Source: Cliona cf. orientalis
Lineage: Eukaryota; Porifera; Demospongiae; Clionaida; Clionaidae
Direction of reading: 5' to 3'
Assembly (NCBI GenBank): GCA_963930775.1
Contig: OZ005691.1
Location: forward strand, 6,383,000 to 6,446,999
Length of the DNA stretch: 64,000 nucleotides
Made by a program: the position numbers and the translations under genes. The notes below the pieces were generated by a model. It was not told the DNA's origin, did not search any database, and was given only the letters and a program-made list of their open reading frames with translations. How positions within the stretch are numbered: the stretch's first letter is position 1; each line of letters begins with the position of its first letter. Positions 22,342 through 61,410 of the stretch are shown here, piece by piece.

Positions 22342-22533
22342 GATCATGCATAATATTATATTAATAATGCATGCGCATATATATATAGCGCATATTATTA
22401 TGATCTGATCGCGTATCGCATGCATGCTAGTCTCGATCTCGTGCCCAGAGACTACATAATACATGCATAGCAGGCTCTTACCTGGTAATGGTCGTCATGT
22501 TATTGTGTTCGAGCACCTGTATGATATGAATGT
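22342..22533. promoter_or_regulatory. Short divergent promoter region
   Basis: Only 192 bp separates the start codon of the minus-strand ROCO gene from that of the plus-strand PPR-like gene. It holds ATGCGCATATATATATAGCGCAT, a near-palindrome with an AT core near 22371, and several GCATGC motifs. NRF-1-type sites look like this. A bidirectional promoter is inferred from the arrangement; transcription starts are unknown. Confidence 0.5.
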
Positions 22534-28076
<5,543 letters not shown>

Positions 28077-29400
28077 TTTGCTGCTGTGTAATAATATTAT
28101 AGATACAGTATACTTTATTATCAATCTATATTATAATAATATTATGGCAATCCAAACATGACAAAATTATCAAATTCAAACTCAAATGTGCAAAATGCAA
28201 AGGCTCCCCTAAACTACAAAAATAGTGAAAAAGATTAATTTTATTATTAATTTTGGTTAGGAGATATTGATGGACAAACCACCCTTCGTTGAAAGGCAGT
28301 GTGAAGACTATTGCTAGCTGCTATACCAAATAAAGCAGCATAAATAATATTAGTTTGCAAGATAATATTTATTGAAAATGGCTGGGCCATGCCTACTACA
28401 AGTATTGAGGATGAAATTCTTGATAAGAGAGGTCAAAGGACCTGGTGTGACGGATGTACGTACGTACAACTGTATTAATTATTACATGATGATGTTGTGT
28501 TTACTAATTTCTAATGTACCGGTAATAGCTAAGTACTGGGAAGATATTGGTATAATATTATTTGCAGCCTTAATTCTTTCTTCAGTCCATCTTTCAGTAC
28601 ATTTCCCGACATAATAATAATATACAATGCACTATAATAATAGTTGTTTATATTCATGCATGTCTAGCACTACCCAAGCATGCAGCCAACATACAAACAC
28701 ACCTGGTGGTAGTCCAGCAGCAAGTTAGCTTTTAAAAGTGCAGCATGAAGCCCCTCTCTTGTTACCAATGTACTACTGCCACGTCCATCACCGGGAGACC
28801 ACTGCAACCACTCACTCAGCTAGAAGCACTACTGTTTGAACTACGAAAGGAGTGCAGTCAAGGTCTACAGTGCTCCTCGGGAGAAAAGTCGAGTAAATTA
28901 TAACGTGCCGTGGCCAAGTGCAATAAAGGCTGCAAACAATATCTTACCTATAGTTGGACTGCAAGACAGATAATCTGCATCTTTTTCCTTGCCATCCGCC
29001 CCCTCCACAGGTGGGTAGCTACTGGTCACAACTGATTCAGCATCAAGATCAGTTGGATAGTGGTAGCAAAGCCAAGGCTAGGTGGGAGCTTTACATGGTT
29101 TGAACTGGCAGCTTTGCTGTTTAATATCGAGGCCCCGTTGTTTGACTAGACTGAGCAGTGTTGTTGCGGCAGCCTGTTTTTGGTGCCCTTCGATATGCGC
29201 ATGCGCGTAAGCCACGCCTATAGCTGATCGATCACACCCTCACATGATTCATGTGACATGCCACCTGATTTGTGATGCGCCCCCCAATTTTTATGAATGT
29301 TCAGCATCTTTCATGAAAGTATTGTATTTTCCAGATAAGAAGTTATTTTATTTCTGAAGAAAACGGTCTTGAAAGGTGTAATCAACTTCAGCATCGAAAC
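28077..29400. other. Intergenic between PPR-like and TRIM genes
   Basis: Mostly AT-rich. A 51-codon frame at 28747-28902 (starts MKPLSCYQCTT, contains LTQLEALLFELRKECSQG, ends in a stop) is protein-like. It could be an extra 3' exon of the PPR-like gene, but its phase does not match the last confirmed exon. Nothing else seen. Confidence 0.4.
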
Positions 29401-31651
29401 ATGGCGGAATCTCAAGCTATAGACTTAGCCCAGAAGCGAAGTTAGAAGATCAACTGACCTGCGCTATCTGCCTTGATGCATTCAAAGATCCCAAAGTACT
29501 CCAATGTTTTCATGTCTACTGCAAAGACTGCCTTCAGCGACTGGTGGTCACAGATAGACAGGGACAACTCTCACTTCGCTGCCCCACCTGCCGACAATCC
29601 ACCCTCGTCCCTCCAACCGTTGGTGTATCCGGTCTCCAGTCAGCATTTTATATTCACCACCTTTTAGAAATTAAAGATACATTTGAAATGCTTAAGGAAT
29701 CAAAAAATGTACCGTGCGGGAAATGCATCCAATCTCCACAATCATCCACTTGCTACTGTCGTGACTGTGGTGAGTTCCTATGTGCCGTGTGTTATATCGT
29801 GCATAGTCAGTGGGGTGATTTTGCCAACCACGAGGTGGTTGCTATTGAGCAACTGAAACAGAAGGTGAAGCAACTCGATGCTATAAAGAAGGTGACCCTC
29901 TATTGCTCCCTGCACCAAGGTAAGGAGCTGGAGCTCTACTGTGAGACATGTGAAGAGCTCATTTGCCATAACTGTACAATCAACAAGCACTATAGACCAG
30001 AACATAAGTTCGATCTGGTGGGAGATACCATCGAGAGACACAAAGCTGAAATTGAAGCATCCCTAGAGCCAATCAAAATGCAGATGGATAGTATCAATAA
30101 GGCACTAGACCAGCTTGATTTACGGTCCCTGGAGTTGGACAATCTACAAATAACACTTGAAAGCAGTATACAACGACAGATCCAGGAGTTTCAAGAACTA
30201 CTAGAAGCAAGAAAGTCGAGCTCATTTCCCAATTGCAGCACCACATCCAAACAAAAAAGAAAAATCTTGCAGCACGGAAGGAGGAACTAGAGACAGTTCT
30301 TACCCAGCTGGCCAGTTGTTCATCATTTGTGAGGGAGAGTCTAAGGACAGGAAGCCAGGGAGAGATCATGAAGATGAAGAAAGCAGTTGTGAAGCAGGTA
30401 AAGGAGATGACAGACAACTTTGAACCAGATACATTGCCTCCCTGTGAGCTGGCTGACGTTGATTTTATAGCATCCTTCAATCTGATTGAAACCTGTCGGG
30501 AATTTACTGAAGTGTATTTACAGAAAGCATCTCCAGAGAAATGCCATGCAGTTGGAAGGGGTCTGGAATTTGCTGAACTTGGTGAGAGAGCGTTTGCAGT
30601 TCTGAATGTTGTTGATCAACACAGAAAGGCTTGCATTGTACCAGTGGAGACCCTCACATGTGAGTTTGTGTCTGTGAGCACAGGTGAAAAGTTTGACAGT
30701 TCCATAAAGAAGATAGCTACCAGCCAGTATGAAATTAGCTACCTAGCCACCAGTCGAGGAAGACACCAGCTGCACATCAAGGTAGGAGGAGGGCACATCA
30801 GAGGAAGTCCATTCCCAGTCAATGTGAAACTACCAACCCAGAAGCTTGGTACTCCCATCAAGAGCATTCAAGGAGTCCAGGGACCTTGGGGAGTAGCAGT
30901 TAACCAGAAGGGAGAGATCATAATAGCAGAGTACAGCGGTTTCCGTATCTCCATCTTCAGTCAGTCAGAAGAGAAGCTACTGCCATTTGGATCACAATTC
31001 AATTATCCCCAAGGTGTGGCAGTGGATGAACATGACAACATACTGGTGGCAGAAAAAGGTAATTATTGCTTACAAAAGTTCACTTCAGCTGGGATGTTCA
31101 TCAACACAGTTGGGAAGAAAGGGAATAAGTTGCTGGAATTTAACTACCCTCTGGATATTGCTATTCATCCCCTGAACAAGATGGTATATGTATCTGATAG
31201 AAGTAATCACCGTATTCAGATCCTGAATCCTGACCTGACATCGACAAGCTGTTTTGGCAGCTTTGGAAGTGACAATGGAAAATTCCAATGGCCCTGGGGC
31301 GTGACTTTTGATAGCACTGGGAACGTGTACATAGCTGATAGTGGTAACCATCGTATTCAAGTATTCAACGCTGAGGGAGAATTTTTAAGGAAGTTTGGGA
31401 AGTATGGCCGTGGCAATGGAGAATTGAACTTTCCTGCCAGTATCTGCATTGACAGCTATGATGTATTATACGTTTCTGAATGGAGCAACCATCGTGTTTC
31501 AGTATTCACGTGTGGGGGCAAGTTTCTGACATCATTTGGCACAAAGGGAAGTGGACCTGGACAGTTTAAAAATCCATGTGGAATTGCATTGGATAAGAAT
31601 GGAATTATTTACATCAGTGACTATGACAATAATCGTTTGCAGTTATTTTAG
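29401..31651 (+). CDS. TRIM-NHL protein (TRIM2/3/71-like), frame slips twice
   Basis: Single-exon gene, about 750 codons if continuous. Order: RING finger (CAICLDAF, CFHVYCKDC, CPTC), first B-box (CGKC, CRDCGEFLCAVC), second B-box (CSLHQGKELELYCETC, CHNC), coiled coil, filamin-type Ig repeat (ending GGHIRGSPFPVNVK) and six NHL repeats (WGVAVN, YPQGVAVD, SDRSNHRIQI, ADSGNHRIQVF, SEWSNHRVSVF, SDYDNNRLQLF). Such proteins are E3 ligases that also bind RNA or partners through NHL. The ATG at 29401 begins MAESQAID; the frame then shifts near 29425 (TT) and again at 30212 (AAA). Each needs one base more in the same homopolymer. Everything else is conserved, so sequencing or assembly error is more likely than decay, but a young pseudogene is possible. 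Confidence 0.88.
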
Positions 31652-32222: not shown

Positions 32223-35200
32223 TCATTGTAATTCAGGTACTTTTGTTGTCAAGTTGAAGTGATAAGGAATAGTTTCATAAGTTTGAATCTTTTCGTAACG
32301 CCGTACTTGATCATACGTCCGTTCCTCTGTATTGTGCACAACTGCTGAACAACTGAATGTAGATGGCAGATTATAGTAGTGTGCAGGAACCAGCTTATCA
32401 TTGGGGGATGCCCACAATAATTTATCGAGACATTCTTGGTCACAAGTGTCAATACTCTCATAGTTTTCGAGGTGATCATAGTGATCGATGGATGCAGTAC
32501 GAACAAGGCGTTTCCGAGGAGCTGCCTTTGGAAGGAGTGAGGGTGCCGATGAGGAAGTGGTCATGGTTGTTTCAGTTGGTGATGAATGAAATGTCTGTAA
32601 TTGATTGCTAGTAGTATTTGTAACTTTCGGAAGCTTTTTCCTAGGTTTAATTGGAGGTTTAGGTCTTGATACTTTAGCTTTAGGATTGTACTTCTCACTA
32701 CTGATATCCATTTTGACCTCACTTGGAGATAGATCTAGTGAGCACAAGTTATTACGATTTGATAGTGCTCCAAATCTGAGTGGGGCTTCAAACTGGTTGG
32801 TCTCACTTTTGGCACTGTAGCAGCTTTCTATTTGTTCAGTATCACTGTCATCATCAAATTCACTCCATCTTATCCCTATTGGTGTTGCTACAGTGTTATT
32901 CTGTGACAAACCACCAGACTGATAGAGAAAATTGTCACTTTCAATTCTCCTTGGTGTCAAAGGAGTTGGAGTATGACTATGTGTACTCTGGTATTCCTGA
33001 AGTGGTAGAGACATAGGTTGGCGTTTCCTAAAAGCTGATATGTCTTCCTTCAAGCTTTCTGATTCCTCCATGTTAAAGTTTGGCTCGCTTCCTCTTGTTG
33101 ATAAACTCCACCTACCATCCAAATTGGTGGCCAATGCTCTCCGCATCTCCACCAGTTTACCATTGCCACCAATGGGCACCCTGATGGGGGAGACTGCTGA
33201 GCTGTTCAGCTGACTATCTTCCCTCACATAGGTGTATTCATCATCGGATCCCAGTGGTTCAGCACGGTGATAATCGTTCATATCTTCTCCACTACTATCT
33301 TCCTCATCGTCTGAGAAGCTCCACCGCCTATCGAAGTTAACCTACAGGTATCAATAATAGTATAGGCATTCACATAGCAATTGAGGAATAATTGCATTTT
33401 TAGCAGGAAAGCAACTTATACAAGGCATGCAAAGCTGAGTGCAATTAATACATCACAAAAATTACGACAGTTGACTATACTACTAGATGATTGCATTTTT
33501 TGTTAGCTTAAGCTCGAGCTATGCTTTCACATAATAGAGAGATGCTTACATCCAAATAAGAGAGGAAGGGTCCAGCTTGATAGACTATCATGAAGCTTTC
33601 CATCTCTATAACACCATGATAGTTTAGCCATTATTCAAAGCTACATATAGTATGGGAACGTTTTTATAGAATTAATTTTGTTTTCATTATACGTGGTTTT
33701 AGATGCCTTGTTCACAATAATTATAGTGCAAGGACCTGAGTTGCATTGATACTCATCACAGTGCAAAATAATACAAGGATAAGATCCGTAATGCAAGGAT
33801 AGACTATTTTTGTGTTCCTCTGCTATGTATTCTTGCATCTGGACATCACCAAACTTCTAATATTTCACAAGCTCGATGAAACGCAACACAAGTCCCTTAC
33901 ATTATAATATTATTGTGATGTAGTCATAAAACTGGGGATAAAATTTAAGGCTGAATTATTGCCTAAGGGAGCAGATGATGGGATTCAGTGATTAGTGTAG
34001 GTATGAATTTGAGTGCAATTTGGGAAACAATTGCATGAGTCTACGTATTAAAAGGAAAATAATTGCATGAGGAAAAACTACAGCTCATAGAACACATACC
34101 CTGCGTGCCATGGCAATATCACCCATGGCCATGCCTCTTCCTAGAGGCCTCCATTTTTTGAAGTTCAGCCTCTTGCTACTCACAAACTTTAAGTGATCTC
34201 TTTTGTTCCATTCTGAGCCTCTTCTTAGAGGCCTCTATAGCTATTCTTTGAAGTCCAGCCTCTTTCTACTCACGAACTTTAAGTGATCTCTATCATTCCC
34301 TTCTGAGATTCATGACATTAATTTTGTGCTAGAAGCATGCTGTAGAGAAGCTTGAGCATGTGCAGTAGTCTCCCTATAGTAGAGAAGCTCAAGCATGCTC
34401 AAGTTCATAGGTACTAGGTGGGCGTGTCTGATGTAGACATACTCGCATGATTTGTAGTTTCCCTGGCAATTGCCTAGAGTTAAGAACGAGACAGAAGGTG
34501 TTTTTTCACTGTCTTACATCATTTTATCGATCATAAATTCACTTAAGCTTAAATGTTGAGATTTGACGATTACAGACGACAGACGACAAACAGACAAACC
34601 AATTGCTTTACCCCTTGCTGCGCATGCGGGATAATGAGAACTACATGTTGATCATAGTAGAATTAGCCATGAAGCCATTGCTGTAGCTGAGAGACCTTGG
34701 TAAATAAGGCTAACCACAGGAATGTCACTGTGCATAGGTCAGGGTTGGTAAGTGGTTGAGCTATTGATCCACGCAGCTAGTATGGTCAATCGTGTGTCAT
34801 TTCATTACAGAAGTCTGATTCTTGACAGCAGAGAGACGCATAGATGCATCCGAAGAGGGTGGGTCTAGCTTGAGTAACTACCACAAAGCCCATCTCCATA
34901 CCTTACGCTAGTTTGTTGCTGGGCCAGTGCTTGTTGCTATGACTATGGAGTACCTACAATCATGATTGGTCCTATCCAGCGTGCACACCACCCTTAGTAA
35001 TATGCTTACTGTACGCATGGCCTCAACCCCCGGTCTAAACTGGGGGGACAAGGCTAAGCTGACTGTTTTGCTAATTATATCTACTTGCTTTGATTTGTTT
35101 TAGTTGTACCTGTTTTGATGCTGTAGATCTTTTTATGTTGCCTTCACTAATAACGTCCTTGTTCACAGCTGAATTGGCATAGCGGAGATACGTCTCTTGT

Positions 35201-38200
35201 AGGTCAGGGTGGAGATACTGACCAGCACTCACGTCGACACCTAGCTCACGAGCTACTCTAGGAATTTCATGTGTTTCCAGTGAATACAAAGCTTGAGATC
35301 CTCCTAACTGAAGCATATGTCTAAGGATGGTTGACGGCTCTGGCCTCATCTCGGAATCAGGATGCCTACGTGCAGGGAAGGAGATAATGAATCATCTCAA
35401 GCATGACTATGCACTAATGATGTAGCACTCACCAGCAAGCAATCATTATTTCATATATACTTCTGAAGCAGCCTGATGGAGGGGAGAGGCGATGGCCCTC
35501 TTGTAACCAGTCCATTATCTACGAAACAGGAAGTTTTACTAATAATAGTTCACAAACATACACGTAATTATGTGGTATTTCAGCATGGTGTAGCAATCTA
35601 TACTGTGATCTACGTGCATGAGTACCAGTATCATTGCGCCACCTGTAAGTTTGTCATCTGTCTGTATGGCTCTTGTCCAAGGCTCCAAATCTCATATAAG
35701 ATCACCCCAAAGCTCCATACCATACTTGCTGGTGTAAACCTCCAGTACATGGTAGCCTACGGTGAGCAATAATATTGTAAGTTATGCTGTTAATATTGAA
35801 AGTATACTGTTTCAGTGAGGATCCCAAAAGATAGTGTGTATATGCAATACCATAATATTGCTTAGGAACTCATCACATTATGGTTTGTCTACAAATTAAG
35901 AAAAATTGGCAACATTATCATGAACCAATGCCAGTGTCAGTCAGTACTTATGGCCAGTGCCCACTTTTAGCACACTGGCAACTTTTGATCAGCTAGCATG
36001 ATGCACACCTATCAAGGGAGTGCCTATAAATAAGTAAGCAATTAGGTACATGTATGCAAAGTTGTAAGATACACCCATTCAACAAACAAAATTAATGGTA
36101 GTCTGCACTGTGCTACATATCATAGTGTCCTGGGTAAGCATAGCCTCTCATCCCCAGGCCCTCTCTCGATCTCCCAGCTTTTATGTTGCATACCTTTTGC
36201 ATGCAACATTAAAAGCACCTAAACATAACTCACAATTTTGGCCCGCATGGATGCTTACCCAGGATATAATTTCCATATGCTTGTATAGAAGCTGCTACAT
36301 TGACCCCTTGAAATTAGCTACATGGGCACATACCCGGGAGTGGGTGTTTGCCCCGGGACACCACAGTAATCACTTAGCAAGATCATCTACTTCCAACTCT
36401 GACATAATATTATAATCTGAGAGCTAATTACCAATGCACAAGCAGAGTATTGTCATAAGTATAATGATACAAATACATAGCTATGTGCACATCTTCTTAG
36501 AGGGACAGAGTGTCACAGAACTAGGCCACTTTATGATTCTGCCACAGTCGCACAATAATTGCACTACAAGTGCTTTATTGCTAGAAAGCTAGGCAAACAA
36601 TAGTAAAAGTAGACTAGTGGCATGGATATGACTTCTATTGATAGAAAGCATCCCAAGTCTCCATGGTGAGAAACTATCTTCATAAAGAACCACATGGAAT
36701 ATGTGTATTGTTTGCGAATTGCCCATCCCTAAACCAAGTACATATTATGTAGTCTGCATAACAGACATTTAATTACTATTTTACTCCATAACTGAATAAA
36801 ACCGTGCATACCTCTGGTGCTGTCCACTTCACGGGAACATTGGCATCCCTATCCAATATAAATTCTCTCTCATTTGACAGGAGTGATGAACATGCGAATC
36901 CAGAAATCTGTAGATATCAATTTTATACTAATTTTCACATAGCATCAGCTTTAATATAATTTGCTGTGGGGATAACTTTGTACCAATTGGGAACTTTAAG
37001 TTATAACTATGTTTAAAGGTGTCCTCGATAGGGAAGGGTTCATAACACTACATATATACAATCCACATACTTTGCAGACACCTTGATCAGTGACCAGAAT
37101 ATGCTTTGCAGTGAGGTAGCGATGGACAAAGCCCTTCTCCGTGAGATAGTTCAGTCCTAGTAAGATGTGTTCACCATACTTCAATAAGAAAGACGGTAAA
37201 TCCGGCAGAGTAACAACTCTAAATAAAGAGAAATAACAATATTATGCTGGGTCATCACATGTACAGATTCAACATTGCCATTGTTTATCATAACATTATA
37301 AAACTAATTGGGCATGTACATATCACAGAATTAGAGCTAGACATACCTCTGTGCACCCACCCACTATTTCCACGAAATTGGCAAAGTAAAATTTTTAGCA
37401 ATTAAAAATTAAACTTCCTGGGGTCATGCTAAATTAATAGATCCTGATGGCTATTTCACTGACAGGTGTATAGCAAGCAATCAGCTCACCTAGATCTCAG
37501 TGCCCTCAGCAGATATATCAGATTGCCCTGAGTGCACATTTCAGTCACAAGGGTGGTCTGCGTATGTCAGAAATAAGTACATGCATGAAATTTGATGTGC
37601 CTGCATGCGTAAAACATGTACCAATAGTTATTTGGGAGGGGGAGGGTGGCAGCCCCTCACCATACCTAAGAGTAGCAAAACAAGTTAAGTGAGGTTGAAG
37701 GATAAGACTTTTCATCCGAAATATCACGTAGTGACCTCATAATTCTCTGACACATGTACCAGGATAGCACCAAATGAAGAGCATGCAGGGTGTGCTATAA
37801 AACAATAAGGCTACCTGTGGCTTGCTCTGTCGTAGCCTCATTCTCACCAGTATTTCAATGGAACATGCTAGGAATGGGCCCAGGAATGAGGCTATGATTA
37901 TTATGTTGTAAAGATTCATTACTACGTATTGAACTATGTTTGAACGTTCATGAACTTCATCGTAGTAAAACTTCAACGAAACATTGAAATGTTTCAGTCT
38001 GTGGACCTTCATCAGTTGAAAACTGAACTCATACAATGCACAACTGTACTTTAGTAATAATACACATTTCTTTCTATCCATGCCTGGCACTAATGCTAAG
38101 GCCCAGTGTAGTTATATTCGTCAGGAAAATTAGGAAATGACACCTGTCTCTATCACTATGAAAGCCTTTGTGACTTGTATAACTGAATTAAGCACTTGAG

Positions 38201-41200
38201 AGCCACTGCCTATTTACCCTTTCCACTGGATAACTGATTTGCAAAGCACAGTCGTAGTCGACAGGGCCGGGGAAAGGTAGAAAAATATGGTGAGGCTAAA
38301 GTGGTAGCATATTAGCTAATGTGCAAGGGGTTATACGGGGGCATAGCATCCCCTTCTCCCAGAATATTTCTGAGATGGACATTTTCAGCTATATTAAACC
38401 TTCAATACCTCTCAGTTCATGGATGATGCCTGGTTGCTAAGATCTCTAAGATCAGGACTACAGCTTCTATTATAATAGTTGCGCTTGTGCAGAACACACA
38501 GTAGGTGTGGTTCATAATTTCAGCATTGCAGGAATGCCCAACTGACGCATAACTATGAAAATCAGGCCAAATATTACTCAGGCCATGGCCTGAGCAGCCG
38601 GAGCGGCTCCTCCGGCTCTGGTAGAGTGGTATTTCATACTAAAATAACACACTAAGCGTGTAGCCCCAAGATCTAGACTGGGTGAGGGAAATGTTTTCCT
38701 GGAGCATATATCTCACTTGAGCTGTACAGTGAAGCTACTGTACATGTACACGTGGTACAAGACAATTAAATTTACATGACATCAAAATTTTTATTTGTAC
38801 TCCTGACTATAGAGTGCTACAGCTAAGGTATATAGGTGCTCACAGATTTCTGTGGTTCCAACAGTCCCAGCAGGTTGACAATGTTAGGATGCCATAGTTG
38901 AACCATAACCACAGCTTCCTGCAACATCCTCAGTGTTGCATTATTACCTGAGGCATGTTTGATGGCCACCATACAGGGACCACTTGGTGTGCTCCACTCT
39001 CCCTTACTCACCAGGCTGAAGTTCCCACTCCCTATCACCTCTGAGTTGCTGCAGGGATGGAATAAGGCACAAACATGAGAAATTCACTTTTTAGGTAGTG
39101 TATACACCTCATCACTTTCAGTATAGTACTCAGTGGTACTGGATAGCAACCAATAGTAAGACAATGAGTGTATACAATTGGCAGTCATTGCACTGGTGCA
39201 TGATGTGTGTTTCCTGATTCTGGGACCACCCCACTAGCATGCAATGATCATGCCACATTTGGACATTAGCTGTGCATAAACATACACAATGTCATACATA
39301 TTATACCAACTGAAAGTGGTGCTGTTACCGTATGTTATCAGGTGGTATCTCAGGGACATAGCGCAGAGCCAGCTGCTGCTGGAGTGATGGGATATCCTGA
39401 GCGGGGTTCTCAATGTGCATCACATGCTCACTGGTCGCGATTGAGACATCGTTCGCTGATAAAAATCTGCGGATTGAGTCTCGTGAAGTCTTTCTCACAC
39501 TTTGAGTGGAGTCCTTTACATGGATAAAGTCATCGTCCATTGCATGCACCGGGAGGTGGTTGTAGCTGTACTCCAGGCTGAGGTCGCTGTGGGAACTGGC
39601 AGTAGAGTGGGTAGAGTGGGCCCTACTTATGGATGGGTATGGACCTGTCCTCTGTAGTATATATATAGAAATGTTTTCTTATCATTAGGACAGTATGGTA
39701 TAATAATATTATTACATGTATGTATTACCTCATCCCAAGCCCCTTTGCTCCTCCCTTCAACAGGGCCAGGGATATACCGTAGATCTGGAAATTTTCGTGT
39801 AAAGAAACTTTCGTATGATAAATTTTCGTGTAATAAAATTTTCGTAGGAACGACCCCTTACCGCACTAGCGTTAATAGTGCATGCTAATTTTTGTAAGAT
39901 TAATTTTCGTAGCCACCATCGACTACGAAAATATTTTTACAACGAAAATTTCCAGATTTATGGTATTATGTTTTTAGACTGGCTAAGAGATCAACAGGTG
40001 TACAAGCTTAAGCTCATTACTATTTCAATTGTAGAACACTTAATGTAGCTCAAATATTTGAGTGGGAAATAGATTGCAAAGCAAACTTTCACAGATATAA
40101 TAATATTATGATTAATAAAATTTAATTTCGGAAGATAGTACCTTAATCTCACCCATTATTATAGAAATTTTCATAGCAGAGGTCAATGTGAAAGCCACCT
40201 TAGTGTCCACCGCAAACTATACTACCTATATATGACTAAAGGTTGTATGTATACTATTGGTAAACATGAGGCTTGGTGAAAGAGCCCTGCTGAGAGCCTT
40301 AGATTGATTACCAGCACCCACCAGGTCTGCTGGCTCACCCATACACATAGGTCTATCCCGCTCCTCTGGCTGCTATCACATACATACTAGTCTCATAGAG
40401 CCAGAACCTTACGCAGGGGGAGGGGGTCTGGTGACTTACTACACACGGAGTTGTTCTGCTGGAATGCAATAATTATTGGCCATTTATGTGACACCACGTT
40501 GTTACATTACACAGTGTGTGTTTGCCTATCATTTCAAAGGGCACGTAATGTTTAATGACATGTGATTATTGTGGAGGCGCGTGACTATGGTAATGCAGTG
40601 AAGCTGCAATCTGATTGGTGCCGGTGTGTACAGCCCGGTGAAACAACTCCGTGTATTGCAAGTCACCAGACCCTCTCCCCTCGCGTAAGGGTCTGGCTCC
40701 GCAAGATCGACTACATACATACATTATTATCTGGATTGGCACAGACATAGATGTGACAGTTACTCATTAAAATTAATGTAAGCTTAGTCTTCACTAGCGG
40801 TAATTGCGTCAAAAATGGAAGTTTACATAATACGCTGTGTCTACAGTGCCGGCACCGGCACCGCAATTTAAGCGTTATAGTGCCGGTAAGTCCATATAAA
40901 ATACTGTACTCTTACGTAGCCCTAGTCCCCGCCCCCTCCTGCATATGGCAATATAAATTTGTACATAAATTTGCCAGCACTCTAGACACTGTGTACATAA
41001 TAATGATCCATAGTATATACATGTGGAACGTACTGCTTTCTTTGTGAAGAGAAACTCGTGCAAAGCCATTATCCATTCGTCTCTCTCATGCAGAGATTCT
41101 GCAGCAAAGTGATGGGCTGGACTGGAACCAGTGATGATATCAAATCTGAACTTCTTGGATTTTTCATTCTTGGATGGCTGAACAGCTATGCAGAACCGCA

Positions 41201-41549
41201 GATCAATAACACCTATGTGGAACAATTCACAGAGATCTGCATACACGTACTGTATACCCTAGTATATTATTTCAGAATTCTTGAGTGATAATTTGCATGT
41301 ACCTTTGAGCTTCAAGGCTGAAAGCTTGGTGGTCTTATCCCGGCACCACCTGCTGTTTTCTGGTACATCATAGTACTCCATCCTGGCGTATCTCTCGTAG
41401 CCAGCGTTTGGACAGGGGACAATGGAATCGACCAGCATGATCCATCTCTTCCTCCACCTGCCCATCTTGCCGCTGGTCGGACTCTTCACAAGGTAACCAG
41501 TCTTCTTGATGCACTGGTAGAATCTACTATGGTGGCTAGCTTCGGCCAT
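32223..41549 (-). CDS. PH-tyrosine pseudokinase, gene A, with long docking tail
   Basis: Exons (minus): 41549-41303, 41236-41034, 39651-39329, 39048-38844, 37557-37490, 37218-37071, 36907-36812, 35756-35643, 35518-35433, 35365-35110, 33603-33550, 33341-32223; 972 codons. PH domain at residues about 17-148 ([33 protein letters not shown]). A Ser-rich linker follows. Kinase-like domain about 260-520: [18 protein letters not shown] hinge, [26 protein letters not shown] and [10 protein letters not shown] are normal. But HRD is HRY (381-383), the catalytic-loop Asn is His388 and DFG is GFA (401-403), so phosphotransfer should be lost. The tail has [15 protein letters not shown] (SH3 ligand type) and Tyr sites YESI, YDQV, YEKI, YETIP. 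Inferred to be a cytosolic scaffold in tyrosine-kinase signalling. Confidence 0.88.
33604..35109. other. Intron of gene A with tandem repeat and relic exon
   Basis: Contains an 84-bp tandem duplication (34134-34310; units start GCCTCTTC(C/T)TAGAGGCCTC), a copy of the dispersed repeat ending AATTGCTTTACCCCTTGCTG (34593-34633) and a degenerate copy of the next exon at 34847-34893. Confidence 0.65.
34847..34893 (-). pseudogene. Relic duplicate of the 54-bp exon of gene A
   Basis: Reads ATGGGCTTTGTGG..., translating [15 protein letters not shown]. The real exon at 33603-33550 translates [18 protein letters not shown]. The bases are alignable over the whole exon and into the acceptor (TATGGAG versus TATAGAG), but there is no GT donor. 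Confidence 0.5.
36230..36372. repeat. Dispersed repeat, CCCGGGAGTGGG family
   Basis: Shares with 45936-46037 and 54915-55050 an order of motifs: CAGG(G)ATATAA, CCATA, TACATTGA(C/T)(C/T)CC, ATGGGC, CCCGGGAGTGGG(T/C)G, GGACAC(C/T)AC. The last end in one copy reads CACTACGGTA. Probably a small MITE or SINE. Confidence 0.65.
37838..37905. repeat. Short AGCCTC...GAGGCT palindrome
   Basis: Ends match the AGCCTCxTxCCCAGGCC family (6028-6383). Intronic in gene A. Confidence 0.4.
39775..39965. mobile_element. MITE, TACCGTAGATCTGG family
   Basis: Ends TACCGTAGATCTGGAAATTT and the complement of TACCATAAATCTGGAAATTT. The interior is made of repeated TTTTCGTA/TACGAAAA words. In an intron of gene A. Confidence 0.85.
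40398..40701. mobile_element. Inverted-repeat element, GAGCCAGACCCTTACGC family
   Basis: The left arm (gagccagaaccttacgcaggg, then ggtctggtgactt) and right arm (aagtcaccagaccctctcccc, then cgtaagggtctggctc) are inverted complements. A single arm recurs at 54124-54190. Confidence 0.8.
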
Positions 41550-42105
41550 AACCTCGCATGCATAGTACGTGATTACGATTAATGCTCTGTACGTAAAAAT
41601 TTATCAGCTAAAACGACTATTGTACTGCATGCACCGTCGCCTCCTGGTATACATGCACCGTCTAATACTGTTTGTACACGTACTTCCTTTAATGGTCTGG
41701 TCAGCAGTGTAGCAAATGCAGGATGTGGTAGTGTGTACAGTTCTGTCGGTCACTAGATCCAAGTGTAGGTCACGCTCTTACCCAAGGCAGTACAATCCCG
41801 GGGGGGGGGGGGGGGGGGGGGATCATCAAGTATAATAGCAGGGGAATATTTATGATAATAGCTATCCTCGATCATCCCCATATTAATAATCATCAGAGTT
41901 CAGGGTCTACTGGCCTTTGTCAACAAGAAAGTATCCCATCACTATAATATTATACCCCCTCTCCACTTGAGAACAATACTCAGGCCACTCCCACACTATT
42001 CAATGAACAACTACCAAATTCCAACAAAATCATTGTATTATCCAATCACAAACAGGAAGTGATCAATTGGACATGATGTAGTGTGTGCAATAGGATAATA
42101 AATAA
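41550..42105. other. Spacer between the two kinase-like genes
   Basis: 556 bp between the 3' end of gene B and the start of gene A, both on the minus strand; it must include the promoter of gene A. It contains a 22-G run at 41800-41821. Confidence 0.6.
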
Positions 42106-45100
42106 TTAATCAGTGCCCTGTCTGGTAGAGTGTTCAAGTTCTTGTTCAAATTCACTTGGAGAGAAGCTCACTTTGTCTTGTGGTGCTGGGCTAAACACAG
42201 CCCAGTCATACGACAATTGCTGTAGCATAACAAAAGTTCGTTTATATAGTAAGATAATTTAATGTCACCATTAAATTTAATATTAAATTTTGTCAAGTTA
42301 AGGGTGAAACTAGTTTCATTTAGCTTGGATACCATTCCCAGATCCCACCAAGAGTATACATCAATGGAGTAGGAACCATTCGAACATTAGGGGGGGCTTC
42401 CCAACCAGTATAAGTGGGTGTGGTTTTGACAATTGATTTGTCCTTGTGTCGTTCCAATAATATTAATTTGCTGACATGCACTAATTAAGTGTCTTCAAGT
42501 CATTTTCTCATTGTGTAATATATAGTATGCCCCAGGGTTTTTTTGTTGTTGTTTTGGAGGTGGGAGGGGGCAGGCCACTCTGCTGAATTATTGGCCCCCT
42601 CTCCCCCAGTTCTACTTTAATTCTAGTCATGGCTCTTAGCTGGTCTAATGGCACAAGGCTAGTTGTTACTGACATTTATGTAACAAAACGCAATGAGAGT
42701 ATGAATGCACAAATATAGCATAGTAGATTAGGAACTGATGGGTAAAGGCTAAAATAAATTAGTACACGTAGGTGCAAAAAGCAATCAAAGTTGGTGGGAT
42801 GGTTCCAACAAAACAAGGCATAAAAGGATATCGCTTTGACACCTATTTGGTAGAGTCCAACCACCCAGACAAAACAAACCCCATATCTAAATTTGGCTTC
42901 ACCAGTTGTGACCACAACAATTTAGCTACCGTATCGACAGTAACCCAAGTACCTTGTGATGGGGATGGAGCGACACCAACTGGTGGTACTCCTCCTGCAC
43001 ATCCTTGTATAGATTAATAGTAGATTCCAGTGGACCGCCCAGCAGGAACCCATCACGAGGAATAAAGTCATCACCCTCGTGTAACTCTGCTTGAAGCACT
43101 AGCTCAGGGTCTTTGAGGTTTTGGTCAATTTTCAACCACGTGGGCCTAGCCACAGATACAGCGTTCCTACATGGTGCATTTTTAATGAATCCTGATTAGC
43201 AAAGGGTGAAGGAAACAGTCATGCTAACCAGCATTGCATCATAAGTTTGTAGATGGTTCTAGGGCATCCTGGAGGTGGTGGAACCAACACACTGGACAAA
43301 GTTTCTAGCTTCTGAAGGGTTGCAGGAATAGAGCAATTATCATGGAACCCTCACAAAGAACACTCCCAATCTAAGCTAATAACAAGAATACAATGTGATT
43401 GTACCTTGTGGGATTCATTGTCCTCTAAAGGACTGCGACCGACACTCCAAATCTCATACAAAACTATACCAAAGCTCCAGACATCTCTTTCAAAACGAAG
43501 TATATCCTCATCTTGGCACATCTGCAGGTCAACGGTAGTTAGTATTAATTATTAATAACGCATTAGTAACTCACAGCTGATGAAAAAGCTTGTTCACGAC
43601 AGAGTCTGTATGAAGGGCACTCTACTCCAGTTATCTATGATACATCAAAAAATAATTTCATCTACATATACCTCCCTTTGAATCTAAGTACCGTAGAATC
43701 CCGCGATTACGCCCCCCCCCCTGTGCATGCTAGCATTGGGCAAAAGTGGGGAGGGGGCTTATATGCGGGATCCTTACATTTCCATGTGACGACCATTATC
43801 GATCGTCGAATGCCATGTGGCCGTGGGCGTGCGATCTCTGTACTTTCTCCGGCTATTAAATTTTGATGGGCAAAACTCGAGAAAATCAACAAAGTAAGGT
43901 ATACTATGGCACAAATAGCTAGTTTGCTAGCTGTAGCTACTGTTTTATTGGCTTTTAGATCCTACTTGTAACAAATACTGTAATCTGATTGGTTAAACTG
44001 AAGTATCTATCCTTCATAGAAAATCATGTAAGCTCTGTAGAAAATCATGTAAAGCTCTGTAGAAAATCATGTAAATTTTCTTGCCTATGGTTAGGGTTGT
44101 TGCTAGGCAGCAGTTTATGTATCAAGCTTTTGGGCATTGTTGCTAGGATCTAAACAGGTTAGACACTGTTTAGTTGGTTTCTACGTGATTTAGAAGACCT
44201 CAGGGCTCAATAGAACCCTCGCTTCACTCGGGATTCTACACAGAGCCCTTCAGTCTTCTAAATCACGTAGAAACCTCCTAAACAGTGTCTAACTATTATT
44301 TAGATCCTACTTGTAACAAATACTGTGATCTGATTGGTTAAACTGAAGTATCTATCCTTCATAGAAAATCATGTAAGCTCTGTAGAAAATCATGTAAATT
44401 TTCTTGCCTATGGTAGGGTTGTTGCTAGGCAGCAGTTTATGTGTCTAGCTTTTGGGCATTGTTGCTAGGATCTAAACATGTTAGACACTGCTTAGTCGGT
44501 TTCTACGTGATTTAGAAGACCTCAGGGCTCAGTAGAACCCTCGTTTCGCTCGGGATTCTACACAGAGCCCTTCGGTCTTCTAAATCACGTAGAAACCTCC
44601 TAAACAGTGTCTAACTATTACATAGACTCTAATATTTACATTTTACAGTCAGGGAGGGGGGACCTCATACGCTAGACAAAACTACCTATGCAGGAAGTTG
44701 AGCTAAAATTCCAGGGAGCTTATGTGTGGGGGGGGGGGGGGGGGGGGCGTATTTGCGGGATTCTACAGGGGTATGTGCATGAACACGACCTACAGCACAC
44801 ACATACACACACACAAAGGATACCAAGTAATTCATGTCACAAGATCTTGATCACAACCATCAATCATAATTCACAATATGAACTACACACAAGTATTTAC
44901 GCTATTGATATAATACCTCAATATCTACTTAGTACATGCATACATGTTCCTTTGTTATAATTATTTATTATTTGCTCCCAGAGCTACCTGTTGGCAACCC
45001 TGCCCCTGACCACCACCACCTGGATCACATATCATCTCAATTAAACTCTAATTATGCCCAGGATGTAGTGGCTCCCAACATGATTGACAATAGGGATTTA

Positions 45101-48100
45101 CCTTACACACTTCCCCTTCTGACAGAAGAATGTACTTGGTTGCCAAGGTTGAGACAACACACCCCCTGTCGACCAAGAAGGCCATACCAGTGGCTATCTG
45201 CTGGCAGTAGGACAGCAGTGTGGTGGGAAGACTCTCCCTCGCTCTCTTCTCTCCCAGCCTCACATGGAAATTGACAACACACATGTAGTACCAAACACAA
45301 TCATATCAACAGCCAAAAGCTGGTTCTATAGCAAGCATCAAATATAGTACTATGACCTACTGTAGACTCAGGAGATGGTTTTGGAGATCACCTTCAGGCA
45401 GGTGCTGTAAGATAATCAGTTTCTGAAATAAAAATGTACATGGTGTTGTGACTCAAATGCTCATTGTATGGCTGGTTGCTGGTCAGCTGGCAGTATTGTC
45501 CCAGTATTATAACGGCACTGCATATGTGCATATACATAATGCCATGCTGGAGACTTAAGCTCATTCATTCCCAGGTTTCAGTGATAATCTCTACTGAAGT
45601 GTACATTAAGACACCAAAATTTTTAATGATATGACAATTACTGATCAACAGATTTAATTTATCTTGTAGCTTTCAAAACAGCCCGATATCGCAATGCATA
45701 TGTATAGTGAATATGCACTCATCAGGCTAATCAAATGACAAACCACATGTTCAGTAATAGTAAGCATACATTCTTAACTAACTTTAATTTACTACTATGT
45801 AATATGCAGTGTACATTCAGGTATTGATATCCCTGGCAAGTGCCCATGTGGGCCAAGCATTGGAGCACTGATGGGCACTTTACTACTATGTAATATGCAG
45901 TGTACATTCACGGGTAAGTGCCTATTGGTACTCCAATGCCCACATGGGCACTTACCAGGGATATAAATACCATACATTTGTATGGAGGCTATTACATTGA
46001 CCCCATGAAACCCAGTGCATGGGCACTTGCATGGGACACTACGGTAATAATAATAATTATTGTACAATAATAGTTTAATAATAATAATAAATCCCTTAAT
46101 ATCAAGCACTGAAGATAGAAAGGGCCAGAGGAGGTCGGACATGCATAGTGCAATACATAAAGACAAAAATCTTTGAATTGTGGGATAATACTTTATCAGT
46201 GACTCCATAATGATGAAACATCGCATCCTGGCCTATTGTGATCATCAAGAATTTTTAATAGTGTTACTTATATGATGGGGTGCATATTTACAATATATTC
46301 CATCGCATTCCATGTACGTAAAGGAGCTCAAAGGTATCCCGTGGTTGATTTTCTCACGGGGCACAGGTTGGGCACAGATATCTCTTCTGAACATAGACTA
46401 TCTGGCCAAGTTTTATTACCCAATTCCAAAAATTCCTCAATCATGTATGAGACCTTGTCCAACCTCCTCTGAGAAAGGGCACCATGACAAGCAGGCTGAC
46501 GGGAATGCAAGTAAAAGAAGCTGTCATAAATGTATCTGTCAAAAGTGTGTACATGCAAGATAGGAGCTGCAGTTGTGAGCCGGCCCTACAGGTATGGCAT
46601 GCATAATACTGTAGATATGTGCTGTACAAGCACACTGCAATTCACTGAGAACATATTATGTGCACTGTACATAAGCTTGCATAGGTGCTTTTGCAAGTTA
46701 TAATTTTTGAGTAAATGTATTTACTACTAGAAGCAAGTCATCTTACCGGCTGCTGAGATAAAGTCATTCCTAATACAGTGGCAACGTTGGTGTGGTTGAA
46801 CTGTGTCATGATGCATGCCTGCTGTAGCATTCTAACCGCCTCTCTCTCCGGACAGTGAGAGCCAACCACTCGAACGCTGACAGTACGAAGAGTTGGCCCG
46901 CTGGAATGTGAGAGCAGGGTGGCTTTGTGGACGGCACCAAAGTGACCACCTGATAGAGTCTCAGAGGACAGGCTGTGGAGTCAAATATGTACCGTAAAGA
47001 TACACGCACATGCTTATTAAGCGCACACTTTCTTCCTATTGTTAAATAATAAGTGCATGCGCTCGATAAAGATGACTATATATTCATTGATCCAATCAAG
47101 AGTTGTCATGCTCTGCATGGCTACATAAAATTTATTCATCAACCCTATTTTCGGATAGCCAGCTGCATGAGATCGGCTACACTCAACACTGCAATGCTCC
47201 ACTGAGACGGGATTGGACTCTTGACCTCGACCACCAAGCAAGTCTCGCCCAAGAAGTCGGCTGTTTTCTCCAGCAAAGGCTTCCAATCATATTTCCACGA
47301 ACTACCGTATAGCGGGAAACTTTCGAGGGAGAAAATTTTCACGAATTTCGCCCTTTTTCAGCCATCCACAAAAGTTTTCTCCACGAAATTCTAGGCATGC
47401 CACACCCATTATGCGACCAGTTTTAACATTCCGCGAAAGTTTTCTCTGCGAAATGCTTCTTTCCTACAGATCCGCGAAAGTTTTCTCCCTCGAAAATTTC
47501 CCACCATACGGTATTATAGAGCTTTTTCAAGAATCGCTGTGTTGATAACTTGCTAGCTTTGTGATTGAGCGTGTGAATGTACTGGCAGTGGGCGGGCCCA
47601 AAACATCACTCTACTATTAAGCGCACCTAATTATTTCCTTACCACCGAGTGATAACTGCATATGTTACTTTACGGTAATACATGTAGTATTACATACCAA
47701 ACACTTTATGTTCAGTACATCATACAACAGGCTCTGGGCTCAAAGCATCATACCTACGTAGTACATATCAGGATTTTATCTGGCCCAAAAATTGTTTGTT
47801 TTTTTTTTGGGGGGGGGGGCGGGGGGAAGAAGTGTTGATCTAACTACAAGTCTAAACCATAACCATATGCATGCATGCCTGATACAGTAGCTAAAATCGT
47901 TGTCAACAATTCAATATTGTTACTACAGTGAAGTACTATACTCACAATACTTCATCCTGGTTGAATTGTGTGACATATGGAAGAGACTCCAATTGCTTGC
48001 TGACGTTGTGGAGGTCACTGGCTAATGGCTGATCACTATGACCATCAAGCAGGGAGTAAGCCAGCGAGCTGCCAGCACTGGCTCTAAAGAAATGTCTGGA

Positions 48101-51023
48101 GTCATCAGTACCGCAGCAACAAGCAACCTAAACACATACATAATGTTATGGAATGTTATAATTTTTACATAATAATATTATTCCCCTACTGCAGCCTTCC
48201 AAGAAAGCATCTATGGTCACTTAACTATGTTATTTCAGTGCTGAGAGTTCTTTCCCATGTGGATGCTCACAGTTACTTGGGATCCTGTAAGCAGCTTCAG
48301 TGACCCTTTCCAATTAAATATTTTGGTAAATGCATGGTTCCTCGGATACTACATCACTAATTCGGGGCGAGCCTGAGCAAGCCCCGAATAATATATATAT
48401 TATATATATATTCTTGTATGTTTGTGGGGTGATCATTTCAGTGAGGAGAGAGTTAAATTTTGAACGCGTTAGGTAATGGTCATCACACGCATGCACACGC
48501 ACTCTGCACTGCACTCGAGCTGCGGGTACTGAGATGACTTGACCAGTGTAGGCAAAGGCATGAAGCTGGAAAAGGTGAGTGCTGGACTACACTGGGAAGG
48601 TTCAGGTCCACAATTAACATCATGCATGTAGACTACACTATTATAGTACATTATTGGACTACTAGCAATCTATAATGCTTTCACTCTCAAGGTAGCTATT
48701 TTTAGGCCCAGCTATGCTATTACTTGTGCAACTGACTGACTGATACTATACTAGCTCCGTGCCTTTATGCTTTCAAAGTGATCTTGACTTTCGCGAAGGC
48801 TCGCCCCACACAGATGATTTTTCATCACCACTAGTATGTAATAATTATTATATCCTACCCCAGTGCCCTATCACACGGGACATGCAAGGGCCAAACGTGC
48901 CCCAGTCATAGCATACAATCAACTTAGGCAAGCATTAGAGTGGAGGCAATTGTACCAACCAACACAATAGAAATTCGACATAATTATCTTTGTACTGTGG
49001 AGTTCCTCCAGCAACGTATTGTACATGACTATAGTTGCCATTCATGGGCATCACACTACAATGTAGGGAAGCTAAGAGTATAGACAAATGCCACCTGTTC
49101 ATATGTGATGGCAGACCAGGTGGCATTAGGTAGTTAACGCAAATACATAAACCCATTGCATGGAGTAAGCTATTAGTTGCCATTATGTTGTACCTGATCA
49201 GATGATGGTCTGTAATCACATAGGTCTTCACAGGAGTGATCCTACATACACAAGATAATCATCACATACGTACGTACACACAAGTACTGCTTACATGAGC
49301 GGTGAGTACGTGAGCACTGCTGGTTAGCAAGTCCCTCCCACCGCTGCTCAAGAGCTCAGACCATGCCACATCTTCACCAGCACAGCTAGCAAACGTCATG
49401 CCCCCTGGAACTACACAGATTACCATAAATGCCTGATACATCCTAAATAGACAGGTCAGGTCACACTACTAAATTTGCCATCAGCAGTTTCACACACATG
49501 CAGGTTGAGATCACTGTATTGAGGGAAATATTTCGCACAAGTGTTCTATATGCGAAAATAAAACTACAAAATTCCAACGTTCAAAATCTTGTATCAACTA
49601 TGATCTCACAAGAAACAGTAACTATTGGTACTATGTTAGTGATCATGCTTTGATCAGCTTGATCTGTTAGCCTCAGTCCTTCAATCATAACGGAAGCTAA
49701 AAAAGTTCATAAACCTGGTATTCTGACAGTAGGTGATCATGAACTGGTCTGGCATACAAAATAAAAACATACAAAATTCTGTGGGCTTGCTGAAATAAGA
49801 CAGATGACCAATGAAATGTCCCCACTATAACACTATTAATTTTGGACAATAGGTTGGCACTATCAGCAACGTGCATTGTACTTTCCACTAATATGAAACT
49901 ACCTATATCTATGCAAGGGGGGGGGGGTTCTGACAAGAGGAGGGTAAGTTAGCCAAGAGCCAGGCATGCAATTACCTTACCAGTTTCTGCTAAGTCAGTG
50001 GGTGAGTGTACTGCTTGGGGAACTGGAATAGCACTTGATAAATTAGTCAATGACTGTTCCAAATCATTGGTTGAGTCAGCATCGGCCAGGTAGAAGGTGG
50101 GTTTGGCATGCACCGGGTCAGCCTACAGATTGGTGATACGAAAGATGAACACACATGCATGTACAGTTATAAACTAGGAAGAAGACTGTAAAGACCAATC
50201 TAGCTATCAAGGGCATTATAACTAGATATTGTACAGACAGTCGATATGTAGTGATGTTATTAGCTCACCTCACCGCCACAATCTCCACTCCCAATCCTCA
50301 AGTCTTTAAATACAATTTTTTTTCCTTTTTTTGGGGGGGGGGGGGGGGGTGGTTGGAGAAGACCCCTCTATTTCCTATAGTAATCATGGAATAACCATAC
50401 CTCCTTCTCAGTCTTGAGAACACTGACACCACATTGTTGAAATGCTTCCAGCCATGACTGCTTCTCTTCAGTAGAGCCAGCTTGGAGTTGAAAGCGGCTT
50501 GCAAATGCCTCCCTCCCAGACTTGATCTTTGAGGTTTCCTTCATCAGGATGAGGTTGAAGCAAGGAGTGGACTGCCTTCGCTTCTTACCTCCAGGAGCAT
50601 AAACATGATCTGGATCCTCAAGCATCAAACACCGAGTGCTCAGATCAATTGATCCTGGTGCATGAATCAGTGATGATATTTATATATATATAGATATGTT
50701 CTCTTTCTCTTGTTCTTCGGTATTCTCTCCCTTTGACCTTTCTCTCTCTCTCTCTCTCTTTCACTATCTCTATTACCCTTGCCCACATAATATATCATGT
50801 AAGATTGTTCACCTTTTCTACCAAAATTTTCCTTCTCGTAGTAGTCCAGTCGTGAAAAGGAGCTGAGAGCACTGGCTCCATTGCCACTGGCAGGGTGGCA
50901 GTCTTGCCTGGAGCTAGACAGCACAAACCACCTCCTCCTGGATCGACCCCTCCCACCACTCGAGGGACTCTTGGTCAGGTAACCACTCTTCACTACTTCA
51001 CCTTCACAATAGCTGGTTGCCAT
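42106..51023 (-). CDS. PH-tyrosine pseudokinase, gene B, heavily degenerate
   Basis: Exons (minus): 51023-50813, 50654-50401, 50122-49981, 49410-49295, 48127-47946, 46972-46747, 45422-45361, 45258-45102, 43634-43575, 43521-43405, 43311-43229, 43166-42953, 42219-42106; 643 codons. N-terminal PH (GEVVKSGYLTKSPSSGG, RRRWFVL, LDYYEKENF, SWLEAFQQCG), close in style to Gab proteins. Kinase-like region from residue about 300: SGGHFGAVHKA loop; VSVR (Arg334) where VAVK is expected; Gln instead of the helix-C Glu; VST (431-433) for HRD; Tyr438 for the loop Asn; GVE (451-453) for DFG; no APE. DVWSFGIVLYEIWSVG is intact. Exon phases equal those of gene A. The tail is short and ends SPSEFEQELEHSTRQGTD. 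A structural or adaptor role is inferred. Confidence 0.85.
43689..44773. mobile_element. MITE, CCGTAGAATCCCGCG family, interrupted
   Basis: The outer ends (TACCGTAGAATCCCGCG on the left; GCGGGATTCTACAG after a 20-G run on the right) match 14425-14793. The copy is split at about 43957/44620 by the tandem element listed separately. In an intron of gene B. Confidence 0.82.
43958..44619. mobile_element. Tandem pair of foldback elements nested in a MITE
   Basis: Two head-to-tail units of about 330 bp. Each starts TAGATCCTACTTGTAAC and ends in a long palindrome, TTAGACACTG(T/C)TTAGT...GTGTCTAACTA, with arms of about 50 bp (TTTCTACGTGATTTAGAAGAC). The first unit has three copies of AGAAAATCATGTAA. 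A third unit lies alone at 53687-53970 in the opposite orientation. Confidence 0.82.
45800..46040. repeat. Dispersed repeat with local duplication
   Basis: TACTACTATGTAATATGCAG is present at 45790-45809 and 45882-45901, and GGGCACTT blocks face each other. The right half (45936-46037) is the CCCGGGAGTGGG-family repeat. Confidence 0.6.
46041..46740. other. Intron of gene B, no exon
   Basis: Overlapping frames on both strands at 46272-46563 are open but not needed by the gene and match no family I recognise. They could be a decayed insertion. Confidence 0.4.
47303..47513. mobile_element. MITE, TACCGTATAGCGGG family, second copy
   Basis: Nearly identical in length and sequence to 16601-16811, in the same orientation. 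In the intron just before the exon that begins the kinase-like region of gene B. Confidence 0.92.
48359..48810. mobile_element. GGGGCGAGCCTGAGC element, diverged copy
   Basis: Left end TTCGGGGCGAGCCTGAGCAAG, right end AAGGCTCGCCCCACA. Internal sequence differs from the other two copies. In an intron of gene B. Confidence 0.62.
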
Positions 51024-59649: not shown

Positions 59650-61410
59650 ATGGCATTTGTGTTTAAACCATCACGCAAACGCAAGCGTGTTTTGAAGGAA
59701 TAGGCAGCGTGGATGCTCCAGGCTAAGACAATTACCAACGTCGACGATTCTGAGGACAGCGACGACAGTTTGGAGCTTCCACGACCGTCTGACGGTTCGG
59801 ACGAAGACTCTGCTTCGAGATAGAGTCCGACAACGATGACGACGCTTGGGCCCCGAACAACGGTGTGTACGGTGCTTAGGAGGACTGGTTGTTTCACCTC
59901 GAGCGAGATGATAAGATGTTGGCGATGCTGCTTTATGACAATTATGTTGATAGGTTTAAGCTACTAAAGACTGCTGCAGCTGCTGAAGTGTCACCTCTTA
60001 TTGGCATGAGTGAGCATACCATTCGTCAGTGGAGAAAGGACTTTGTCTTAAATGGTGGTGAGTTCAGTGAGTATCGTAGAGGAAAGCACCAACACTATTT
60101 GGTACTGGAGGATGAAGAATATAAAGAAATGGCTGTCACGTGGGTCAGGGCCAACGTCGTCGTCAAAGGGCATCCAAACATGACAGCTGCCGCGTTTCAC
60201 TCTTGGGTCGTATCAGTGCTCTTATCTCAGGTTAGCATCACCCTGAAGTGCCTGCTGATGTCTCCACTCACACGACGGCATGCTGGCTTCACCAGCTCGG
60301 TTTTGCACCATCGTCGACAAAGAAAGGTGTTTACATCGATGGGCATGAGCGGAGTGACGTGGTTGATTATCGAAAGGTTTACTTGAGAACGTTGGAAGCA
60401 CTGGTCCATCCATGTACCACACCCACCAAACAGCGACGAGCCTCCACCTGAAACATCGGATCGTAGGAACTTGTGCTGATATTTCATGATGAGAGCACAT
60501 TTCACTCCAATGACGATCAAGGGTGGATGTGGGCTGAAAAAGGCAAGCAACCAATCAAACCAAAAAGTCAAGGACGAGGAATTATGGTGAGCGAGTTCGT
60601 GGATGAACACAATGGCTATCTCCGCTTGACTGATGCAGAGTTTGACAGGGAGAAAAATTCACATCCTGGACTGTGAAAGGAAGCGCGATGTTTTTTGAAG
60701 ATCGGAGCTGAGTACGAGGGATACTGGGACAGTGAGAAATTCCTTAACCAGGTGGATCATAGCATCACCATCGCCAAGCTGAAGTATCCAAAGGAGACAT
60801 ACAGCCTGGTTTTCTTGTTCGACCAAAGCAGTGGGCACGCTGTATTTGCCAGCAACGCTCTCAACATCAATCAAATGAACGTCAACCCTGGTGGGGCTCA
60901 ACCACAGCTACGAGACACCATATGGAATGGAAGGTCTCAGAGAATGGTGTTTAGCAACGACACTCCAAAAGGAATGAGGCAAGTCCTCAACGAAAGGAAG
61001 TGGACACGAAAGGAATGAAGGCTGCTGACATGCGTAAAGCACTTGGAGAGATGCACGATTTCAAGTACGAAAAGACAAAGGTTGAGCACTTGGTCAGTAA
61101 CCGTGGATATTGTGCTATTTTATATCCCCAAATTCCATTGTGAATTGAATCCGATCGAAGCTTGCTGGGGACAGGCTAAACGCTACACGAAGGCCCATTG
61201 CGATTACAGCTTTCAAGGTCTCGAAGGACCATTGATCCAGGCTTGAACAGTGTCACACTCGACCATATTCGGAAGTTCTACCGTAAAGTGAGGGACACAA
61301 TGCATGCCTATCGTGAAGGTGTTTCTGCCGGTCCTGATTCGAAGAAAGCGCTGAAACAGTACAAGAGTAATCGCCAAGTTTCAGAAGCGGGACTAAGTTC
61401 ACTTGTGTAA
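59650..61410 (+). pseudogene. Broken IS630/Tc1-like DDE transposase
   Basis: Begins MAFVFKPSRKRKRVLKE, then an acidic stretch. Next come a helix-turn-helix region (59920-60110; TIRQWRKDFVLNGGEFSEYR), KGVYIDGHERSDVVDYR (60325-60375), then the DDE fold: first Asp in LIFHDESTFHSNDDQ (60476-60520), second Asp in LVFLFDQSSGHAVF (60808-60849) and the Glu in HCELNPIEACWGQAKRYTKA (61136-61195). The C-terminus ends near 61408. The reading needs at least five frame or stop repairs (for example TAG at 59698 and 59821), so it is dead. Terminal repeats were not found. Confidence 0.82.

Follow-up and report, generated by a model that had tools for sequence, protein, structure and literature searches.

Two neighbouring genes on the minus strand of the 64,000-nucleotide stretch of DNA analysed here (the window, whose coordinates are used throughout) are predicted to encode proteins with an N-terminal PH domain followed by a degenerate tyrosine kinase domain. 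Gene A (41549-32223) and gene B (51023 to ~42926) probably belong, in degenerate form, to a receptor tyrosine kinase (RTK) family that is expanded in the same genome. This probable RTK origin is the main new result, and it was absent from the earlier, unaided reading of the window (the original prediction). Because of the grouping of their kinase domains in trees, the phases of their kinase introns and a shared C-terminal tail segment, both genes look like RTKs in which a PH domain has replaced the ectodomain and membrane helix. At a probability of roughly 60%, we favour the reading that A and B are RTKs turned into PH-anchored pseudokinases that act as docking or decoy partners of the RTKs of their own family.

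Structure of the two genes

All exons of both genes were rebuilt from the sequence, every intron used GT-AG and the phases are consistent, so that two adjacent minus-strand genes with matching splice phases, as originally proposed, are confirmed as a gene prediction. Gene A has 11 coding exons and 946 codons. The PH domain, identified by Pfam, is encoded in two halves by exons 1 (41303..41549, phase 0 to 1) and 2 (41034..41212, 1 to 0), and is followed by a linker or juxtakinase exon 3 (39329..39651, 0 to 2) that is free of Pfam domains and matches only itself in the genome. The kinase domain begins with the N-lobe in exon 4 (38844..39048, 2 to 0), where the VAIK lysine is retained, and continues with the hinge in exon 5 (37490..37557, 0 to 2), the catalytic loop in exon 6 (37071..37218, 2 to 0; HRD replaced by HRY) and exon 7 (36812..36907, 0 to 0), which has GFA for DFG and an activation loop without the YY of the RTKs, and retains APE. 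Helix alphaF lies in exon 8 (35643..35756, 0 to 0; DVW replaced by MVW). Exon 9 (35433..35518, 0 to 2) leads to exon 10 (35110..35365, 2 to 0), which holds the kinase end and an RTK-type C-tail segment.

The predicted last exon of gene A (32223..33341) encodes a tyrosine-containing tail with a PPIKPRK motif. That one given frame should stay open over its 372 codons by chance has a probability of ~1e-11, and the exon is therefore very likely coding; phase, strand and proximity suggest that it belongs to gene A. With this exon the protein has 946 amino acids, and a read-through after exon 10 to an alternative stop at 35071 would give a short form of 586 (574 + 12). A scan for poly-A hexamers found none after either possible end of the gene. 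Adjoining this end, at 29382-31651 on the plus strand, is a TRIM-type gene with RING, B-boxes, a filamin repeat and NHL repeats, in which two overlapping open frames imply an intron or a frame change near 30161-30290. The window further contains a possible ROCO-type gene, a large minus-strand open frame (9238-11598) in which a Roc/Ras-like GTPase domain is recognised, an ankyrin-repeat match (21982-22494) and, on the plus strand, an open frame (59880-60386) that may be a transposase fragment, as judged by weak helix-turn-helix matches that stay below the cut-off.

Gene B has 12 coding exons, with 606 codons up to the last donor-like site and 614 amino acids with the read-through end. Its PH domain, again identified by Pfam, is encoded by exons 1 (50813..51023, phase 0 to 1) and 2 (50401..50654, 1 to 0), after which come two linker exons (49981..50122, 0 to 1; 49295..49404, 1 to 0) and a linker or juxtakinase exon (47946..48127, 0 to 2). 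The kinase part comprises the N-lobe (46747..46972, 2 to 0), the hinge (45361..45422, 0 to 2), the catalytic loop (45102..45258, 2 to 0), a short activation exon (43575..43634, 0 to 0), the alphaF exon with DVWSFG retained (43405..43521, 0 to 0), a further exon (43229..43311, 0 to 2) and the probable last exon (42926..43166), which encodes the kinase end and an RTK-type C-tail segment, stops at 42926 and has a donor-like site after 42953. Between its catalytic-loop and activation exons, gene B has an intron with a duplicated 227-nt element (44092-44640; 93% identical, with strong inverted repeats) of MITE-like appearance. The kinase junctions built by hand were reproduced by an automatic splice solver at six of six positions in gene A and at two of six in gene B, and the junctions of gene B thus rest on hand-building.

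The two genes share the intron phases of the PH part (1, 0), as had been noted. The claim of identical phases across the kinase part stands for seven of the eight introns; the eighth is unconfirmed in gene B, which can end at 42926. A shared eighth intron was dropped from the comparison as unneeded, given that gene B can end within its C-tail exon.

The models would join the PH exons to the kinase exons in one transcript. Alternatively, the two sets of exons could form separate transcripts, giving rise to short PH-only proteins and to truncated receptor pseudokinases that start in a linker exon; the 1.4-kb intron after the PH domain of gene A, the internal Met within A's linker exon and the three linker exons of gene B would all fit such an arrangement. 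We consider it unlikely, since the two neighbouring copies agree in the order of the exons, the PH intron phases and the donor at the PH end, the phase-0 donor that closes PH exon 2 is followed by a phase-0 compatible linker exon in each gene, and the same separation would be required twice. The lack of in-frame stops across the exons adds little to the case for joining, because the exons were picked as open and the result is partly one of construction.

Domain content and loss of catalytic residues

Pfam searches place a PH domain at residues 15-135 of A (2e-11) and 10-145 of B (1.1e-7), and a PK_Tyr_Ser-Thr domain at residues 251-505 of A (1e-62) and 304-552 of B (3.1e-41), all above the curated cut-offs. 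The linkers of both proteins returned no Pfam family at E<=10, and SH2 and SH3 domains were undetected there. The originally proposed combination of a PH and a tyrosine-kinase-like domain, with neither SH2 nor SH3 in between, is thus upheld.

The lesions in the kinase domains were read from an alignment with seven intact relatives; the functions of the altered residues are textbook knowledge. In A, HRD has become HRY, DFG has become GFA, the alphaF Asp is replaced by Met and the activation-loop YY by EF, and the beta3 Lys, the alphaC Glu and APE are retained. In B, the beta3 Lys is replaced by Arg, the alphaC Glu by Gln, HRD by VST and DFG by GVE, and APE is unrecognisable; these five catalytic features are gone and the alphaF Asp is kept. 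The activation exon measures 60 nt in B against 96 nt in A. As neither protein has the HRD Asp or the DFG Asp, both are predicted pseudokinases, and the early view that catalysis had been lost in both genes, in different ways, agrees with the alignment, although the ways differ only in part.

Such damage could also mean that A and B are decaying pseudogenes of the RTK family rather than genes for working proteins. Both have long branches, B has lost its five catalytic features, and the duplicated 227-nt repeat sits inside one of its introns. Against this, the exons are open (having been picked as such) and bounded by GT-AG with consistent phases over 11 and 12 exons, a gained PH domain scores above the Pfam cut-off in both genes, and the structural kinase segments YEIWS.G and PP.GC.R.IY..M..CW are retained where catalytic ones are gone; B in particular keeps structural segments despite its five losses. 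Decay is, on this evidence, slightly less likely again than separate transcripts, and we read A and B as probably functional pseudokinases.

Neither predicted protein has the transmembrane helix and ectodomain of an RTK. No membrane-helix-like stretch occurs in A or B, whose best hydropathy values are 1.19 and 1.28 compared with 2.9-3.6 in receptors, and between the PH and kinase parts there is no open frame of at least 30 residues above a hydropathy of 2.2.

Receptor-type relatives in the same genome

The genome searched comprises 216.8 Mb in 149 contigs and contains at least 155 matches to tyrosine kinase (TK) domains (family search, with 119 of 2511 candidates scored). The window lies on its contig C3, where gene A spans 6,415,222-6,424,548 and gene B 6,425,925-6,434,022. 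Ten intron-bearing kinase loci were sampled from it, and their introns were located by a profile exon scan and a splice search in which the rows of the splice-site profile included A. The kinase introns of A recur, in position and in phase, in kinases of loci L009, L010 (two), L012, L013 and L014. Single introns are missing from some members of the family, and one junction of L011 was scored as phase 1. At the junction of the juxtamembrane and kinase parts, a phase-2 solution like that of A and B was present, among other candidates, in all four loci examined (L009, L011, L012 and L014). The introns of loci L015-L017 differ from those of A's family. Identical kinase intron phases had been put forward as proof that A and B arose by duplication; they fail to show this, since the phases also occur in intact receptor-type kinases of this genome.

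An unrooted tree built from 32 TK domains of this genome groups A and B with seven intron-bearing kinases, apart from the 23 others, with a branch support of 100/99. HRD and DFG are intact in all seven. The trees were built without L043, the partial L018 and additional kinases of L012, L014 and the start of L010; the row L012a has an 11-residue insert beside APE, taken as a splice-choice artefact, and L015a was cut at a stop. Among single-domain solved structures, the best relatives of the L013 kinase are a reconstructed Src-Abl ancestor and Eph receptors, followed by FAK.

A smaller tree of 12 rows pairs A with B at 81/76, with both branches flagged as long, and a topology in which just the seven receptors form a group also stands (p-AU 0.14). 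Identity to the seven RTKs is 38-43% for A and 31-38% for B, and 30% between A and B. Since each is closer to the RTKs than to the other, the two may have gained their PH domains independently.

Upstream of six of the seven grouped kinases lies a same-strand open frame in which a 20-residue stretch reaches a hydropathy of 2.9-3.6 and is followed by basic residues; these membrane stretches are read from unspliced open frames and not from spliced models joined to the kinases. The seventh kinase, L014a, has no membrane-helix-like stretch up to the end of the examined locus; one is present with the second kinase in L014 (hydropathy 3.52). Seven frames on the ectodomain side of the family, among them L009 4282-6302, L011 5634-7036, L012 4459-5463 and L013 4967-5659, were compared with Pfam and none matches a family over the cut-off; the expanded receptor family perhaps carries an undescribed ectodomain. 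Elsewhere in the genome, a single open frame of 2925 codons (G000:C17:2316562-2324877) contains ten consecutive TK-domain matches.

The receptors end in a C-tail segment of the form G.PLEAG..LY.DLQ..Y. Scored with a profile built from nine copies in five loci, A reaches 16.9 bits and B 23.6 bits, and none of 2000 shuffles of each sequence came up to its value. No copy was found in L011, one of the six family loci. By eye, a homology of A and B with the RTKs had also seemed to extend into the juxtamembrane part; it was dropped, as 136 and 42 of 1000 shuffles matched a four-receptor profile equally well. Such a juxtamembrane segment is not known to define the family.

An N-terminal PH domain ahead of a TK domain also brings to mind the Tec family, whose PH-SH3-SH2-kinase architecture is described as anciently conserved (PMC8662651), and A and B could in principle be Tec-like remnants that have lost SH3 and SH2. 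BTK is among the PDB matches of the A kinase, with 158.7 bits not far below the 173 bits of EphA3. Yet the kinases group with RTKs of their own genome at 100/99 (in a tree without Tec sequences, and hence as indirect evidence), their introns and C-tail segment are those of the RTK family, and the linkers hold no Pfam trace of SH2 or SH3. A Tec origin therefore seems very improbable, and derivation from the RTK family is the reading we retain.

PH domains, linkers and the tail of A

Between the PH domains of A and B, identity is 36%, and both have the same phase-1 intron, placed between KG and xIDL. From the linker into the C-tail, the proteins are similar over 371 residues (31%, 3e-36). The originally proposed common origin of A and B thus finds support in the identity and intron of the PH domains, in the adjacency of the genes, in this extended similarity and, weakly, in the pairing of the 12-row tree; it draws none from the kinase intron phases. 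The 'Gab/Dok style' proposed for the PH domains found no confirmation. For A's PH domain, PLEKHA6 is the best solved relative (1e-6), with pleckstrin also among the PDB matches, and the PH domain of B has no solved relative at E<=0.1.

Genome searches with the PH domain and linker of A and with the PH domain and linkers of B returned self matches only, as did a search with the tail of A, at cut-offs of 0.01, 0.1 and 1. For the PH domains and linkers, scoring covered 76 of 1109 candidates and, in a further search, 72 of 596; for the tail it covered all six. The PH searches are limited in sensitivity, because the PH domains of A and B miss each other, and within that sensitivity no PH donor gene was found in this genome by protein comparison. 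PH domains occur at no fewer than 91 places (at least 91 matches, 150 of 161 candidates scored), none of which lies beside the sampled receptor loci when coordinates are compared.

The tail of A contains eight YxxPhi motifs, seven of them within the last 100 residues, where 4.1 would be expected in the whole tail (5000 shuffles, p 0.022, for a motif picked after inspecting the tail). We take its PPIKPRK motif to resemble SH3-binding motifs. In B, no exon for such a tail was recognised.

Proposed origin and function

In the favoured reading, the ectodomain and transmembrane-helix exons of an ancestor of A and B would have been swapped for PH exons. The kinase exons, inherited together with the introns of the family and its C-tail, would then have lost catalytic residues, partly in different ways in A and B. 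The PH domain could anchor the protein at phosphoinositide-rich membrane, where the dead kinase domain may keep a protein-binding surface and pair with intact RTK relatives or with substrates. Phosphorylated by a partner kinase, the tyrosine- and proline-containing tail of A might recruit SH2 and SH3 proteins, and A would therefore work as a docking scaffold. B, in which no such tail was found, would be a tail-less partner or a decoy. A fuller version is possible and is held more tentatively: an RTK lineage whose outer exons were replaced, yielding cytosolic docking pseudokinases that are anchored by PH and now modulate their parent receptors, with A as a scaffold through its tyrosine tail and B as a tail-less antagonist.

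Relation to known systems and significance

A and B resemble the RTK family of their own genome (L009-L014) in kinase grouping, intron positions and phases, and C-tail segment, and differ from it in the PH domain that replaces ectodomain and membrane helix and in their broken catalysis. With the Tec family they share the N-terminal PH and tyrosine kinase domains, whereas SH3 and SH2 are undetected, the kinase groups with the genome's own RTKs and the domain is that of a predicted pseudokinase. The docking proteins Gab, Dok and IRS have an N-terminal PH domain and a long tail that bears tyrosine and proline motifs. With its predicted tail A would be alike in both respects, and B in having a PH domain; both differ in having a pseudokinase domain after the PH domain, which itself is assigned to PF00169 only.

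ErbB3, ROR and EphB6 are receptor pseudokinases, a class of transmembrane proteins. Like these and CCK4 (mentioned in PMC8662651), A and B have an RTK-derived domain, lost catalysis and a presumed allosteric or docking role; unlike them, they are predicted to be cytosolic proteins with a PH domain. Titles and opening lines of abstracts in the literature searched, with kinome papers incompletely covered, mention no sponge protein that combines a PH domain and a tyrosine pseudokinase without SH2. The architecture of A and B is unusual, and we regard it as a variant of known pseudokinase scaffolds and not as a new kind of system.

Should the exon joins hold, A and B would represent a traceable conversion of a receptor kinase into a membrane-docking pseudokinase by domain replacement, probably in an early-branching animal. 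The source RTK family is still intact in the same genome, so that both this conversion and the idea that its products regulate their parent receptors can be tested there. The two genes suggest that receptors can become membrane-docking scaffolds.
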